Positions 4,572 to 8,675 of a stretch of DNA of 8,675 nucleotides are shown piece by piece; the first letter of the stretch is position 1, and every line of letters begins with the position of its first letter. The translations under genes and the position numbers were made by a program. The DNA is from Actinomycetota bacterium (GTDB lineage Bacteria; Actinomycetota; Acidimicrobiia; Acidimicrobiales; Iamiaceae), in NCBI GenBank assembly GCA_017882935.1, contig JADGOP010000077.1, positions 1 through 8,675 on the forward strand, in the 5' to 3' direction. A model generated the notes under the pieces. That model did not search any database and was not told the DNA's origin. It was given only the letters and a program-made list of their open reading frames with translations.

Positions 4572-5453
4572 TCAGATGCGCTCGAGCGCGCCGCCGTCGA
4601 ACAGCGGCGTCATGCCGTGCGCGGCCACGTCGGCGTCCAGCTCGGTCCCGCTGGGCGGCAGGGGTTCCCCCTGGGCAGCCGCCAGCGTGGCGGTGAGGAG
4701 CGTGGCGTCGCTCGAGGTGTTGAGGAACAGCTGCGGGTTGGCGAGCACGAAGGCCACCGCGTGGGCCAGGGCGTCGCCTGCGGGCAACGGCTCGTACCAG
4801 GCGAACTTCGGGCCGGTCGCCTCCGGTTCCCAGCGGCGCCGGGCGATGGCCTTGATGGTCTGCACCGCCACCTCCCGCTCGGCGCACACCTCGAGCAACT
4901 GCTCGACCGACGCGCGGTAGGCGTCGTCGCGCAGCAGCACATGGCTGTAGGGGAGCAGCACCGAGGCGAAGTCGAAGCGCTCGAGGCTGCTCAGGTGGCG
5001 CTCGGCGATGCGCAACCCGTGGCCCGTCACGCCGATGTGGCGCACCAGACCCTCGTCGCGCGCCCTCGCGAGTGCCTCGACGGCGCCGCCGGGCCCGTGC
5101 GCCACGTCGAACTCGTCGGGCTCCACCAGGTTGTGGAGCTGGATGAGGTCGACGTGGTCGACGCCGAGCCGGGTGAGCGACCGTTCCAGCTCGGCCCGGG
5201 CGCCGTCGCCGGTGCGCTCGCCGGTCTTGGTGGCCAGGAACACCTCGGCGCGGTGGTCGGCGAGGAACGGGGCCAGTCGCAGTTCGGAATCGCCGTACGC
5301 CGCCGCGGTGTCGAGGTGGTTGATGCCCCCGGCGCGCACGACCTCGAGGACCTGGTCGGCCTTCTCCTGGCGCATCCCACCCAGCGCCGCAGCACCGAAG
5401 ATGACCCGTGAGCTGTCGTGCCCGGTCCTGCCGAACGGCCGCAACGCGATCAT
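4572..5453 (-). CDS. Aldo/keto reductase family oxidoreductase
   Basis: A 293-residue aldo/keto reductase, an NADPH-dependent (beta/alpha)8 barrel that reduces carbonyl groups in the cytosol. All four catalytic residues are visible: Asp48 and Tyr53 in H-L-D-T-A-A-A-Y-G, Lys76 in A-T-K-T and His107 in L-I-Q-L-H-N. The C-terminal part has A-F-V-L-A-N-P (234-240), where many members carry a cofactor-binding loop, and it ends in M-T-P-L-F-D-G. I chose the ATG at 5453, where family homology begins with R-P-F-G-R-T-G. Its upstream sequence lacks a clear Shine-Dalgarno; GTG codons near 5510 would add a proline- and serine-rich leader without family resemblance. It is the first gene of the leftward operon with the ABC exporter and is divergent from the Rrf2 gene. 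The substrate is unknown. Confidence 0.9.
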   Translation of the reverse strand: MIALRPFGRTGHDSSRVIFGAAALGGMRQEKADQVLEVVRAGGINHLDTAAAYGDSELRLAPFLADHRAEVFLATKTGERTGDGARAELERSLTRLGVDHVDLIQLHNLVEPDEFDVAHGPGGAVEALARARDEGLVRHIGVTGHGLRIAERHLSSLERFDFASVLLPYSHVLLRDDAYRASVEQLLEVCAEREVAVQTIKAIARRRWEPEATGPKFAWYEPLPAGDALAHAVAFVLANPQLFLNTSSDATLLTATLAAAQGEPLPPSGTELDADVAAHGMTPLFDGGALERI

Positions 5454-5515
5454 CGGGGTCGACGGTAGCGCCGGCAGCGACGACCGTGCCGGGCCGTCGC
5501 CGGCCACCACGATCC

Positions 5516-5521
5516 TATAGT
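5516..5521 (+). promoter_or_regulatory. -10 element of a probable leaderless promoter for the Rrf2 operon
   Basis: TATAGT (5 of 6 to TATAAT) ends eight bases before the GTG start codon at 5530. Transcription would then begin at or within a base or two of that GTG, giving a leaderless mRNA, which is common in actinobacteria. The lack of any Shine-Dalgarno sequence before 5530 agrees with this. No convincing -35 hexamer is seen in the very GC-rich upstream sequence. Confidence 0.55.
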
Positions 5522-5529
5522 CTCTGACT
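5519..5529. promoter_or_regulatory. Small perfect palindrome at the Rrf2 promoter, candidate operator
   Basis: AGTC and GACT flank a 3-base spacer (TCT) and fill the space between the -10 element and the GTG start, overlapping the last three bases of the -10. Rrf2 regulators often repress their own promoter by binding inverted repeats at this position. The arms are only four bases, so this may be the core of a larger degenerate site or chance. It does not obviously match the published NsrR consensus. Confidence 0.3.
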
Positions 5530-5937
5530 GTGCGACTTGAGATAACCCGCCGAGCCGACCTCGCCGTGCGCGCGATGGCAGTCCTGGCCGATGCCGGCGG
5601 GCGCGTCAAGGGCGGCGATCTGGCCACGGCCCTCGAGACCACCCGCGGCTTCGTGCCGCAGGTCCTCGGTCCGCTCGTCGCGGCCGGCTGGGTGTGCTCC
5701 GATCCGGGCCCCACGGGCGGCTACCGGCTGACCGCACGGTTGCAGGACGTCACCGTGCTGGAGGTGGTCGAGGCGGTCGAGGGCCCGACCGACCTGGGGC
5801 GTTGCGTGGTGGCCGACCGCCCGTGCGGCTCGCACGGTCAGTGCGCGCTGCACGTGGCGTGGGCCCGCGCCCGGGGCGAGCTGATGACCTCGCTCGGCGG
5901 CCTGGCGATGTCCGACGTCAAGCTCCCGGGACCGTGA
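5530..5937 (+). CDS. Rrf2-family transcriptional regulator, NsrR/IscR-like with three cysteines
   Basis: A 135-residue winged-helix regulator of the Rrf2 family. The N-terminal helix has R-R-A-D-L-A-V-R (residues 7-14); the recognition helix region is T-R-G-F-V-P-Q-V-L-G-P-L (38-49); and the wing carries the conserved G-x-x-G-G-Y-R-L (60-67). After the dimerisation helix (V-x-x-A-V-E-G) come Cys92, Cys99 and Cys105, spaced as C-x6-C-x5-C. These sit where NsrR and IscR hold their Fe-S cluster (usually C-x5-C-x5-C). Asp10 aligns with the aspartate that completes the [4Fe-4S] ligand set in Streptomyces NsrR. An NO- or redox-sensing Fe-S repressor is the best reading, strongly supported by the downstream RIC and globin genes. 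The GTG start appears leaderless, and the stop overlaps the next start by four bases (GTGA). Confidence 0.9.
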   Translation: MRLEITRRADLAVRAMAVLADAGGRVKGGDLATALETTRGFVPQVLGPLVAAGWVCSDPGPTGGYRLTARLQDVTVLEVVEAVEGPTDLGRCVVADRPCGSHGQCALHVAWARARGELMTSLGGLAMSDVKLPGP

Positions 5938-6731
5938 CGGCCGCGCCCGCGCGTCCTCGGCCCGCGTGGTGGGCGGTCGCGATCCCCTCCGAACACGGCG
6001 GGTGGGCCCTCTCGCTCGAGGCCGGTCTGCTCGGCCTCCTCGTGACGCCCTCCCTTCCCGGTCTGGGGCTCGCGCTCGCGGCGCTCGTCGCGTTCGTGGC
6101 GCGCACGCCGCTCAAGATCGCGCTGGTCGACCGGCGGCGGCACCGCCGGCTGCCGCGCACCCGGCTGGCCGAGCGGATCGCAGTCGGAGAGCTGGCCCTG
6201 CTCCTCTGCCTGGGTGTCGGCGTGATCGCCACCGCAGGGTGGACCTGGTTGGTGCCCGTGGCCCTCGCGGTTCCGCTGGCCGGCGTGGAGCTGTGGTTCG
6301 ACATGCGCAGCCGCGGTCGTCGCCTGGTTCCCGAGCTGAGCGGTGCGGTCGGCATGGCCGCCACCAGCTCGGCGATCATCGTTGCCGGTGGCGGAGGTGC
6401 CCGCCTGGCCTTGGCCGCGTGGCTCCTCCTCAGCGCGCGGTCGGTCGCGTCGATCCCGTTCGCCAGGGCGCAGGTCGATCGGCTGCACCACGGAGCACGG
6501 CCCACCACGGTCAGCGACCGTGCACAGCTCGCGGCGGTCGGCCTCGCGGCGGTTGCCGCCGTCGTGGAGCCGAGCGTCGTCGTGGGCGTCGTGGCACTCG
6601 TGGTGGTCGCGGCGCTGCAGCTCGTGTGGGTCCGGCGCCCGCCGGTCCCCGCCAGGGTCCTCGGCATCCGTCAGGCGGCGGTGGGGCTCTCGCTCATCGT
6701 CGCCACCGCACTCGGGGTGCACCTCCTGTGA
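5934..6731 (+). CDS. YwiC-like family integral membrane protein
   Basis: A 265-residue membrane protein with about eight hydrophobic segments (near residues 25-38, 42-57, 84-101, 103-120, 138-152, 156-170, 197-211 and 215-233, perhaps a ninth at 245-263). The N-terminal motif I-P-S-E-H-G-G-W (17-24) just before the first segment is the family signature. A basic cytoplasmic loop (about 65-81) and a conserved-looking polar loop R-S-V-A-S-I-P-F-A-R-A-Q (169-180) interrupt the membrane segments. The family is named after Bacillus subtilis YwiC, encoded near fnr and nitrate respiration genes; its biochemical role is unknown. The GTG at 5934 overlaps the Rrf2 stop by four bases and has a weak GGGA upstream, so translation is probably coupled. 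Its place between an Fe-S regulator and an Fe-S repair protein suggests a role in NO or redox stress at the membrane. Family assignment is fairly firm; function is not. Confidence 0.8.
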   Translation: MTAAPARPRPAWWAVAIPSEHGGWALSLEAGLLGLLVTPSLPGLGLALAALVAFVARTPLKIALVDRRRHRRLPRTRLAERIAVGELALLLCLGVGVIATAGWTWLVPVALAVPLAGVELWFDMRSRGRRLVPELSGAVGMAATSSAIIVAGGGGARLALAAWLLLSARSVASIPFARAQVDRLHHGARPTTVSDRAQLAAVGLAAVAAVVEPSVVVGVVALVVVAALQLVWVRRPPVPARVLGIRQAAVGLSLIVATALGVHLL

Positions 6732-6767
6732 CTGCGCCATCACCCCAGCCCACCGAACCGCTTCACC

Positions 6768-6774
6768 GAGAAGG
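6768..6774 (+). promoter_or_regulatory. Ribosome binding site supporting the GTG at 6785
   Basis: GAGAAGG lies ten bases before the GTG at 6785. It competes with a GGGGTG at 6714-6719, eight bases before the other in-frame GTG at 6728, which overlaps the YwiC stop as GTGA. The choice decides whether the RIC protein carries a 19-residue extra N-terminus. Confidence 0.4.
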
Positions 6775-6784
6775 CCGACACACC

Positions 6785-7501
6785 GTGATCCCCATCGACC
6801 CCGACAGCACGCTCGCCGACATCGTCACCGCCCATCCGTCCGCGGCCCGGCTGTTCGAACGTCACGACCTCGACTACTGCTGCGGGGGATCGCGGACCCT
6901 GTCCGAGGCGTGCGTCGAGGGAGGTCTCGACCGGACCGCTGTCGTTGCCGACCTGGCCGAGCACGCCATGGGCGACGCCTCGGTCCCCCTGACGGCGCTG
7001 GGCCTGGGCGAGCTCGTCGACCACATCGAGGCCACGTACCACGTGCCCCTGTGGAGCGAGCTCGACCGCCTGGACTCGCTCCTGGCGAAGGTGGTGGGGG
7101 TCCACGGGGCACGCCATCCGGAGCTCCACTCGGTCCGTGACGCGTTCCGGAGGCTGAGGGCCGACATCGAGCCCCACCTCCGGGACGAGGAGCACACGAT
7201 CTTCCCGGCGATCCGCCGGTTGAACGTTGCGCCGTCCCGGGAAGCGGCGCCCGTGGGCCTGATCGAGGCCATCGACGGCCTCGCTCGTGAGCACGACGTG
7301 GCTGGCGCGCTGCTCAGCGATCTCCGGGCGGTGACCGGCGGCTACCGGGTGCCGGACGACGGGTGTGCGGCGTACCGCGCCTGCTTCGGGGGTCTCGCCG
7401 ACCTCGAGGCCGATCTCCACCTGCACGTGCACACGGAGAACAACGTGCTGTTCCCGGCCGCCGACCGGGTCGCCCGGCGACTCGCCCCGGCCGCACCGTG
7501 A
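6785..7501 (+). CDS. Iron-sulfur cluster repair di-iron protein (RIC/ScdA/YtfE family)
   Basis: A 238-residue cytosolic protein of the RIC family, which restores Fe-S clusters damaged by nitric oxide or oxidants and may also handle NO directly. The N-terminal ScdA domain carries D-Y-C-C-G-G at residues 30-35. The C-terminal hemerythrin-like domain has the histidines and glutamates that bind the di-iron centre. By alignment with E. coli YtfE these are His86 (T-Y-H), His131 and Glu135 (H-L-R-D-E-E), His170 (R-E-H-D), and His214 and Glu218 before N-N-V-L-F-P. Length is slightly above the usual 220. I chose GTG 6785 because it puts the cysteine motif at the distance from the start seen in YtfE and ScdA; GTG 6728 would add 19 Pro/Thr-rich residues and give a third GTGA overlap in this operon. 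The stop overlaps the globin start (GTGA). Confidence 0.92.
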   Translation: MIPIDPDSTLADIVTAHPSAARLFERHDLDYCCGGSRTLSEACVEGGLDRTAVVADLAEHAMGDASVPLTALGLGELVDHIEATYHVPLWSELDRLDSLLAKVVGVHGARHPELHSVRDAFRRLRADIEPHLRDEEHTIFPAIRRLNVAPSREAAPVGLIEAIDGLAREHDVAGALLSDLRAVTGGYRVPDDGCAAYRACFGGLADLEADLHLHVHTENNVLFPAADRVARRLAPAAP

Positions 7502-7953
7502 GCCCCGTGCCGGCCGCGACACCCGACCATGCGCTGGCTCCTGCCGAAGCGCTGCGCCCCGACCTCGACCGGCGCTCGCGGATCCACGACCTCGTGATCG
7601 CGTTCTACCGCGAGATCGTGTTCGACGAGCTGCTCGGCCCGGTCTTCACCGAGGTGGCAGAGACCGACTGGTCCACCCACATCCCGAAGCTCATCGACTT
7701 CTGGTGCCGGATGCTGCTCGACGAACCGGGCTACGACGGCTTCGTCCTCGCGGCACACGAGCACGTCCACGACACCGAGGCCTTCCGGCTCGAGCACTTC
7801 GACCGCTGGTACGCGCTGTGGGTCGCCACGATCGACGACCGTTGGGCGGGTCCCCATGCCGAGCTGGCGAAGCAGCGCGCCTTGCGCATCGGCCGGACCC
7901 TCGCACGCCGACTCCTCGGAACCGGGTGGACACCCGACACGGGAGCTCCCTGA
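7498..7953 (+). CDS. Group III truncated hemoglobin
   Basis: A 151-residue 2-over-2 globin of truncated group III, with an N-terminal extension of about 25 residues. Visible globin landmarks are F-Y at 36-37 (Tyr37 as probable B10), Phe50 in P-V-F (probable CD1), H-I-P-K-L-I-D-F-W (61-69) with His61 as probable distal E7, His87 in A-A-H-E-H as probable proximal heme ligand, and H-F-D-R-W (100-104) with Trp104 as probable G8. Tyr B10 and Trp G8 are typical of globins that bind O2 tightly and react with NO. Relatives such as Campylobacter Ctb are induced by NO, though their exact chemistry is debated. The GTG at 7498 overlaps the RIC stop by four bases and lacks a Shine-Dalgarno sequence, so translation is coupled. 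It is the last gene of the module. Family is firm; position assignments are by eye. Confidence 0.88.
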   Translation: MSPVPAATPDHALAPAEALRPDLDRRSRIHDLVIAFYREIVFDELLGPVFTEVAETDWSTHIPKLIDFWCRMLLDEPGYDGFVLAAHEHVHDTEAFRLEHFDRWYALWVATIDDRWAGPHAELAKQRALRIGRTLARRLLGTGWTPDTGAP

Positions 7954-7999
7954 GGCGTACCGTCCTGGCTACGGCAGAACCGAGCAATGGGGGTAGGGC

Positions 8000-8293
8000 A
8001 TGGCAGCGCAACTCATCCTTCAGTTCGAAGGCGTCTCCGAGGCCGAGTACTGGGCGGTCAACGAGAAGCTGGGCATCTCGCACGACCAGTCGGCGGGGTG
8101 GCCCGAGGGCATCCAGACGCACACCGCCGGCTTCGCCGACAGCGGTGCGTTCGTCGTCACCGAGGTGTGGGACTCGCAGGAGGCCCAGGGTCGGTTCATG
8201 GAGTCACGCCTCGGCCCCGCTCTCCACGAGGTCGGCCTTCCGGCACCGTCGAGCATCACGTGGATCGAGCTCTTCGGGCAGAAGCTGGTCTGA
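8000..8293 (+). CDS. Small protein, possible dimeric alpha/beta-barrel (ABM-like) fold
   Basis: A 97-residue protein I cannot assign to a named family with certainty. The pattern fits a ferredoxin-like dimeric alpha/beta barrel: a first strand L-I-L-Q-F-E (residues 5-10), a helix with E-A-E-Y-W-A-V-N-E-K-L-G, an H-T-A-G-F motif, a strand F-V-V-T-E-V-W-D (51-58), then a helix S-Q-E-A-Q-G-R-F-M-E-S-R-L (59-71) and a final strand W-I-E-L-F. The strand-then-helix step with E-V-W-D-S is common in antibiotic-biosynthesis-monooxygenase-like proteins. The ATG at 8000 has strong GGGGG and AGGG runs just upstream (7989-7998). It follows the globin by 46 bases and may be transcribed from its own weak promoter or by read-through. 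No signal peptide or membrane segment is visible, so a cytosolic place is likely. Confidence 0.75.
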   Translation: MAAQLILQFEGVSEAEYWAVNEKLGISHDQSAGWPEGIQTHTAGFADSGAFVVTEVWDSQEAQGRFMESRLGPALHEVGLPAPSSITWIELFGQKLV

Positions 8294-8357
8294 CCCACGC
8301 GCGGCCCGAACGGTGGCGGCGGAGCCTGCTCACGCGCCGTCGCCGCGGGTCCGCCGG

Positions 8358-8675
8358 CTAGAGGGGGAAGGTCTCGCCCACGAGCTCTTCGGACCGCGCC
8401 CACAGCGCCCGCGCCGTGTCGGGGTCGAGTGCGTACCCCATGACGCCGGGCACCTCGTCGGTGTCGGTGACGATCGGCGCCACGTTGCAGTCCTCGCAGA
8501 ACCTGCCGCCGATCTCGTCGGCGTCGGCCACCGTGGCCGCCCAGACCTGGGTCGCCGCACCCTCCGGCACCGACTTCCACACGTTCGGCCGGTTCCCGCG
8601 GGCGGCGATGAGCTGGGTCAGCGTGTCGTCGGTGAGGTGGCGCGCCAGCTCCGTCATGATGCCGCCGGGGTGCAG
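8358..8675 (-). CDS. Short-chain dehydrogenase/reductase, C-terminal part (cut by window edge)
   Basis: The last 105 residues of a short-chain dehydrogenase of the extended-C-terminus, WW-domain-oxidoreductase/retinol-dehydrogenase-like type. The frame is open to the window edge and starts with L-H-P-G-G-I-M-T-E-L, the P-G segment after the catalytic Y-x-x-x-K that contacts the cofactor. Further on are K-S-V-P-E-G-A-A-T (substrate-loop helix) and F-C-E-D-C-N-V-A, a C-terminal motif seen in this subgroup, then A-L-W-A-R-S-E-E-L-V-G near the end. The Rossmann fold and catalytic residues lie to the right of the window. An internal ATG in M-T-E-L is not the real start. The gene converges on the 97-residue protein gene, with 64 bases between stops. 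The substrate is unknown. Confidence 0.88.
   Translation of the reverse strand: MHPGGIMTELARHLTDDTLTQLIAARGNRPNVWKSVPEGAATQVWAATVADADEIGGRFCEDCNVAPIVTDTDEVPGVMGYALDPDTARALWARSEELVGETFPL

Follow-up and report, generated by a model that had tools for sequence, protein, structure and literature searches.

The window analysed here is the whole 8675-bp contig JADGOP010000077.1 of an incomplete metagenome-assembled genome (MAG; GCA_017882935.1, Acidimicrobiia; 2.76 Mb, 478 contigs, 78.7% complete). It carries four rightward genes, for an Rrf2-family regulator, a YwiC-like membrane protein, a RIC protein and a group III truncated haemoglobin (globin), together with a palindrome laid over the start of rrf2 (Table 1). 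The genes were identified by family models and matches to PDB structures, which agree with the four-gene set of an earlier inspection of the letters (the sequence-only reading). GTGA overlaps had been proposed there at 5934, 7498 and possibly 6728; the first two are exact, the third is poorly supported, the more likely RIC start being GTG 6785, with which related RIC N-termini line up and which has GAGAAGG ten bases ahead of it. As to the single promoter claimed for the operon, a search of 5400–8400 gave neither a terminator-like site nor a canonical sigma-70-like one; the promoter is itself a prediction.

Table 1. Predicted and assigned features of the operon (positions in the window).
Feature	Position	Strand	Basis
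Predicted −10 box TAGTCT (TANNNT type), leaderless promoter	5518..5523	+	sequence; conserved upstream bases
Predicted operator AGTCTCTGACTGTGCGACT, AGTC-N4-AST-N4-GACT	5519..5537	strandless	overlaps −10 box and rrf2 start codon
Rrf2-family regulator, 135 aa, GTG start, C92/C99/C105	5530..5937	+	PF02082, TIGR00738
YwiC-like polytopic membrane protein, 265 aa, predicted UbiA-like fold	5934..6731	+	PF14256, structure model
Ribosome-binding-like GAGAAGG ahead of preferred RIC start	6768..6774	+	sequence
RIC (YtfE/ScdA-type) di-iron protein; GTG 6785 preferred, GTG 6728 possible	6785..7501	+	TIGR03652, PDB
Group III truncated haemoglobin, 151 aa	7498..7953	+	PDB 2ig3, haem-pocket residues

A YwiC alignment was scanned against genome contigs and gave 65 loci (single loci are quoted by L number). 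Alignment of 21 rrf2 upstream regions, with omission of loci that scored under the bit limit and of loci whose start could not be read (L030 and L044 among them), revealed a palindrome of odd length, AGTC-N4-A[C/G]T-N4-GACT, with its centre two bases 5' of the start codon and an overlap with the TANNNT box, while the flanks had diverged; A, G and T at −11, −10 and −9 were kept in 21, 20 and 21 of the 21 regions, and the non-coding positions −11, −9, −3 and −1 were identical in all of them. TAGTCT spans −12 to −7 before the rrf2 GTG, which is leaderless geometry, and a leaderless promoter is predicted here. The palindrome over the rrf2 −10 box and start codon is a new result.

A larger set of 35 distinct rrf2 orthologues (Rrf2 at least 170 bits, a limit under which L030 and L044 were restored; site permitted from −40 to +10) had the exact operator in 22 cases, in 21 of these at the same place, and an operator within one mismatch in 29. 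Without L100 and L102, which had been fetched by the operator pattern, the counts were 20/33 and 27/33; for 12 orthologues neither defining nor fetched by the motif they were 5 and 6. For comparison, 16 of 751 called gene starts of L016–L080 (rrf2 starts included) had a site at the one-mismatch level, and 780 kb of fetched loci (motif-defining loci included) held 20 exact sites vs 0.4 expected from a first-order Markov model. The window genome has one exact site, that of Table 1, and no match to the reversed control pattern. The operator, conserved as it is at rrf2 starts, lends strong comparative support to self-regulation by Rrf2, which the sequence-only reading had claimed, with binding and repression predicted from it.

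The regulator scored 93.5 bits with PF02082 (cut-off 30) and 76.9 bits with TIGR00738 (cut-off 73.3), values of an Rrf2-superfamily protein; beyond TIGR00738 it reached none of the curated subfamily models (IscR, 48.6 vs 207.55 bits; RirA, 38 vs 193; CymR, 26.8 vs 195). C92, C99 and C105 were invariant in 23/23 aligned orthologues, and position 10, equated by eye with Asp8 of ScNsrR, was Asp or Glu in 22/23 (Gly in L027). The cluster ligands of ScNsrR are Cys93, Cys99, Cys105 and Asp8 (PMC5411485, PMC9338935); the first Cys gap is x6 in the window protein vs x5 in ScNsrR. The Cys/Asp set resembles the NsrR ligand set, and ligation of a cluster by it is predicted. The NsrR consensus gATGyAT-N5-ATrCATc, at up to three mismatches, matched the window solely at 1795, outside the operon, and at a level of at least 12/14 gave two sites in the 65 loci and the window (L066, L076); an NsrR-type operator was rejected for the operon, as the consensus is absent there.

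The exact operator was also sought in 37 genomes picked from those with a ywiC locus (8 relatives and the genomes of 29 of the 65 loci). Of its 28 sites, 17 coincide with an rrf2 start and one with the start of ywiC (L036); a further three precede cytochrome c-narG genes, two precede nirK-like genes and five lie elsewhere (L099, L101, L103, L105, L106). The three nar sites (L018, L033, L055) precede a gene for a dihaem cytochrome c followed by narG; L033 and L055 are about 90% identical at the site and were therefore counted as one lineage. The order in L018 is rrf2-ywiC-site-cytochrome c-narG-narH-narJ (Mo-oxidoreductase domains; nitrate reductase beta C-terminal domain, 74 bits; delta-subunit match sub-threshold, 20 bits, cut-off 22.2), and the narG of this locus is similar to the TIGR01580 protein of G046. 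In L098 and L104 a ribosome-binding-like site and the ATG of the gene come after the operator; the products scored 145–153 bits vs the TIGR02376 cut-off of 296, so that the term NirK-like is used. Elsewhere rrf2 stands directly before nirK (L118, L120) or behind it (L119), and a paralogue follows narGHJI (L124).

In L036 (6903–7780) the rrf2-like promoter, operator and first codons are fused in frame to ywiC, and a database protein (P0066; protein start only) likewise has start codons resembling rrf2 fused to ywiC; with the operator built into the rrf2 start, loss of rrf2 with retention of promoter and operator is expected to leave such a fusion. A truncated rrf2-like open reading frame (ORF) lies between the operator and the cytochrome gene in L055 (5642–5800); in L033 the operator before dihaem cytochrome c-narG is at 9561. 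In the MAG KLAP8 the rrf2-ywiC-RIC operon occurs three times, on separate contigs (L029, L032, L039), each time with the exact operator.

Gene order was compared in 82 loci (the 65 ywiC loci, 16 other fetched loci and the window), with script-called genes, profile labels and same-strand gaps of up to 250 bases; the finder was home-made and starts are approximate. The run rrf2-ywiC-RIC was contiguous in 18/82 loci and rrf2-ywiC-RIC-globin in 5/82 (window, L025, L029, L107, L121); the order is not unique to the window genome. RIC follows rrf2 in L102, L116 and L117, globin follows rrf2 in L123, and a RIC-ywiC pair occurs in one Acidobacteria MAG (L077). In the 3.4-kb stretches of L129–L131, L136 and L137, which carry ywiC in another class of the same phylum, no Rrf2, RIC or globin was labelled. 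Relatives of the operon come from MAGs of soil, sediment, lake and reactor type, mostly Acidimicrobiia; YwiC relatives in named records are mostly from Acidimicrobiia or unplaced Actinomycetota, with some from Chloroflexi and Acidobacteria and single others. Adjacency of the four genes by inheritance alone, with no common regulation, is very improbable: in 39 of the 75 runs that contain ywiC no partner gene stands beside it (some of these runs are at contig ends), but the reshuffled arrangements, with RIC, globin, ywiC, nirK or nar beside rrf2, recur, many with the same operator.

Some neighbours recur as well. In L025, L029 and L107 the genes directly behind globin code for a membrane protein, presumably an anchor, with a weak match to QmoC (in L025, 29 bits, cut-off 300) and for a molybdopterin oxidoreductase of NasC-like type (in L025, 776 bits, cut-off 1100); L025, L029 and L047 continue with genes for a DmsB-like subunit, a Rieske protein and a SLAC1-type channel (clustering and representatives). 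The products may form a reductase complex, possibly membrane-bound, for a nitrogen oxide or another substrate. Another recurrent neighbour of globin, ywiC, rrf2 and nirK is a polytopic protein of about 390–415 aa that Pfam does not match (L043:5657–6817; L062; L072; L102:2136–3311; L126:1316–2563; L135:1974–2852); many of its homologues among the 120 matches listed bear the JGI label 'nitrite reductase (NO-forming)'. In the window a fifth rightward ORF (97 aa, 8000–8293) starts 46 bases past globin; neither Pfam nor NCBIfam matched it, and the ORFs of the 65 ywiC loci include no homologue at E 1e-3.

Co-occurrence was counted in 148 genomes of the order, with thresholds set after the data had been seen: Rrf2 of at least 183 bits for a carrier (next score 118; three weaker genomes of 15 matched are dropped), NirK above 140 bits (below the curated cut-off of 296; 50/148 genomes match at E 0.001) and NarG at E 1e-100. 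A clear rrf2 orthologue was found in 12 genomes, a NirK-like protein in 18 and NarG in 9. NirK was present in 7/12 carriers vs 11/136 other genomes (P 6.6e-5, relatedness uncorrected), and NirK or NarG in 9/12 vs 17/136 (Fisher P 6.6e-6). It is conceivable, though rather doubtful, that the operon controls and serves nitrate or nitrite respiration itself, as an ArnR-like anaerobic switch to which stress protection is secondary. The position of rrf2-ywiC directly 5' of cytochrome c-narGHJ in L018, the rrf2 genes in nirK operons of relatives and the NasC-like Mo-enzyme genes right behind globin in L025, L029 and L107 would suit such a role; against it, RIC and globin are damage-handling proteins by family, and the window genome gave neither NarG nor NirK and NasC-like matches that are distant (26–33% identity). 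Among the matches listed, a literature search returned nothing on control of nitrate or nitrite reduction in Acidimicrobiia.

A second box was found near nirK-like genes. The DosR/DevR consensus of Mycobacterium is TTSGGGACTWWAGTCCCSAA (PMC2275270); matches to an initial, coarser DosR consensus were unremarkable, and GGGAC-N4-GNCCC, shaped on the present loci, occurred at 12/15 close and 0/5 distant nirK-like genes vs 13/730 other starts (range, up to 300 bases upstream or up to 60 inside the called start). The ten nirK-like genes L139–L148 served as the independent test, and 7/10 had the box. Box-bearing loci are L098, L104, L125–L127, L139–L141 and L144–L147 (in L147, 21 bases inside the called start); no perfect box was found at the distant NirK-like genes of L118–L120, L128 and L138. 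A related consensus, built on the same loci, lies 35–68 bases before 9/35 rrf2 starts vs 10/751 starts. The likeness to DosR/DevR (PMC2275270) thus lies in the box near many nirK-like genes and in the related one before some rrf2 operons, and a layer of activation by hypoxia or nitric oxide (NO) at nirK-like genes is possible. In contrast, the window has no clear box; its best match (8/12) was no better than shuffles and was rejected.

RIC scored 209 bits with TIGR03652 (cut-off 204.7; translated from 6728) and matched PDB entries 9r7j and 5fnn. DYCCGG is present in the window protein (relatives uncounted), and H105, H150, E154, H189, H233 and E237, assigned as ligands by alignment to YtfE and its di-iron ligand list, are kept in 33–35 of 36 aligned rows (window counted twice); the window protein thus has the CC motif and the six His/Glu positions of a RIC protein. 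The sole PDB match of the globin was 2ig3 (named group III truncated haemoglobin; E 3e-8), and no globin family of Pfam or NCBIfam was matched at E 0.01. Its group III haem-pocket residues Y37 (30/31), H61, H87 and W104 (31/31 each) are presumably Tyr B10, His E7, His F8 and Trp G8. An N-terminal DUF1971 domain, cupin-like and of the family of YeaR and the TehB N-terminus, is fused to group III globin near the operon or ywiC in L025 (5723–6475) and L068 (8238–8999; PF09313, 49.3 and 44.6 bits). No paper pairing 'group III truncated' with Rrf2 was found in the literature search. YtfE and ScdA are reported to act, besides iron-centre repair, as nitrite reductases producing NO (PMC9052748, PMC12412097), which would make a globin beside RIC a sensible partner.

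The YwiC-like protein matched PF14256 (67.4 bits, cut-off 25). Its structure model (pLDDT 90.4) resembles UbiA-type membrane prenyltransferases, with weak E-values in a class, helical bundles, that generally scores high; by sequence no solved structure was linked up to E 10, and one of 21 YwiC members matched a UbiA Pfam model (E 0.82). The Asp motifs of UbiA, NDxxDxxxD and DxxxD, were not seen by eye, the window protein having no Asn-Asp pair; among the invariant columns, Asp is scattered and Arg frequent. That the protein has an altered or new activity, with a membrane lipid, a quinone or haem as its substrate, is a guess, and this reaction is the weakest part of the explanation proposed below. 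The literature search returned no paper for 'YwiC-like', alone or combined with NsrR.

Known systems offer close parallels. As background, hmp is the core NsrR target. In Proteobacteria, Bacillus and Streptomyces the targets of the NsrR regulon include dnrN/RIC, a globin (glbN of Legionella), nirK and a tehB homologue (PMC1274295). The present system shares with it an Rrf2 regulator, RIC, globin and nirK targets and a palindromic operator in the same 19-bp odd frame as gATGyAT-N5-ATrCATc (PMC1274295); it differs in its AGTC-N4-AST-N4-GACT operator, in failing the NsrR model and in carrying YwiC. The operon works like an NsrR target unit, yet the regulator cannot be filed as NsrR. ArnR of Corynebacterium is an NO-responsive iron-sulfur repressor of nitrate reductase and NO detoxification (PMC12343034); as an actinobacterial iron-sulfur repressor over these functions it is similar, but it is not an Rrf2 protein and has hmp as target instead of RIC and group III globin (PMC12343034).

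Control by iron-sulfur or iron status (IscR-, RirA- or SufR-like) or by redox state (RsrR-like), the operon serving general iron-sulfur maintenance with nitrogen oxides as one insult, is unlikely. In its favour, the Rrf2 profile scored highest among solved Rrf2 structures with 6y45 (54.9 bits; IscR 44.5, NsrR 40.3), 6y45 and, likewise close, 6hsd being RsrR structures. RsrR of Streptomyces venezuelae is a redox-sensing [2Fe-2S] protein with 11-3-11 sites (PMC5015018); it differs in these features and in its targets, and the Cys region aligns unevenly. SufBD-core genes (272–273 bits) were observed divergent from a globin-ywiC cluster in L043 (3623–5059) and L062 (3260–4687); however, the stretch fetched for L043 is without an rrf2 orthologue, and L062 has a divergent Rrf2 (147 bits). 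The operator and its neighbours point instead to nar, nir, RIC and globin genes, and no suf or isc gene was seen at operator sites (the neighbours of the five unplaced sites were not family-searched).

The evidence is best read as a nitrogen-oxide regulon of Acidimicrobiia that is NsrR-like and self-repressed and has an operator of its own. Since the operator covers its own start and the same palindrome stands before nitrate- and nitrite-reduction genes in some relatives, the operon likely protects the cell from NO, with NO sensing predicted. A number of points count against this. The window Rrf2 scored 19.8 bits with the NsrR equivalog NF008240 (cut-off 182), and its profile prefers other structures, as given above. 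Six of the 35 orthologues are without a good site (L044, L112, L119, L120, L122, L124). The left arm and centre of the operator are non-coding; the right arm overlaps rrf2 codons 2–3, so that coding constraint accounts for part of the conservation, which in this arm may be partly at the protein level. In L009, L024 and L116, where codons 2–3 no longer give the right arm, a palindrome shifted by 8 bases scores equal or better; L061 and L112 have a similar change without the shifted palindrome. In the 37 genomes the exact operator had 28 matches vs 29 for the reversed control (positions of the latter unplaced); frequency alone therefore carries no signal, position does, and, the operator being no commoner than the control, a site that lies outside a promoter has no meaning. 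Few genomes supply the nirK and nar sites, the co-occurrence statistics ignore relatedness among genomes, and many ywiC genes stand without partners. No NirK or NarG match was found in the 78.7%-complete genome of the window itself. The sequences themselves show the gene set, the conserved operator and its positions, the invariant Cys, the recurring order and the co-occurrence; occupation of the operator, repression, cluster type, the NO signal and the activity of YwiC enter as predictions. Co-occurrence, and operators standing at nar and nirK genes, support the nitrogen-oxide link of the sequence-only reading, whereas the regulator misses the NsrR model, the NsrR consensus is absent from the operon and neither NirK nor NarG was found in the genome itself. 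On the whole that reading was correct in most of what it observed, and its inference pointed in the right direction.

On balance we consider it probable that the operon is repressed by its own Rrf2, bound to the palindrome of its promoter and released by NO or a nitrogen oxide, which frees RIC, globin and the UbiA-like protein. Rrf2 would occupy the palindrome covering promoter and start codon; NO or a related nitrogen oxide would damage its iron-sulfur cluster, Rrf2 would let go, and RIC, the group III globin and the UbiA-like membrane protein would be made. Where relatives have NarG or NirK, the NO would arise from their own nitrate or nitrite reduction; for the window genome, in which neither was found, neighbours would be the likelier source. 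Repair of damaged iron centres, or reduction of nitrite, would fall to RIC, and binding or oxidation of NO to the globin; the YwiC-like protein may modify or protect a membrane component.

The wider proposal is of a nitrogen-oxide regulon of Acidimicrobiia, run by a non-NsrR Rrf2 subfamily with its operator in its own gene start, overlaid by a DosR-type layer and defending respiration by RIC, globin and a UbiA-fold protein; on this we are evenly divided. The explicit operator makes the regulon testable and ties YwiC to a process; if true, the system would be an actinobacterial counterpart to NsrR and ArnR.

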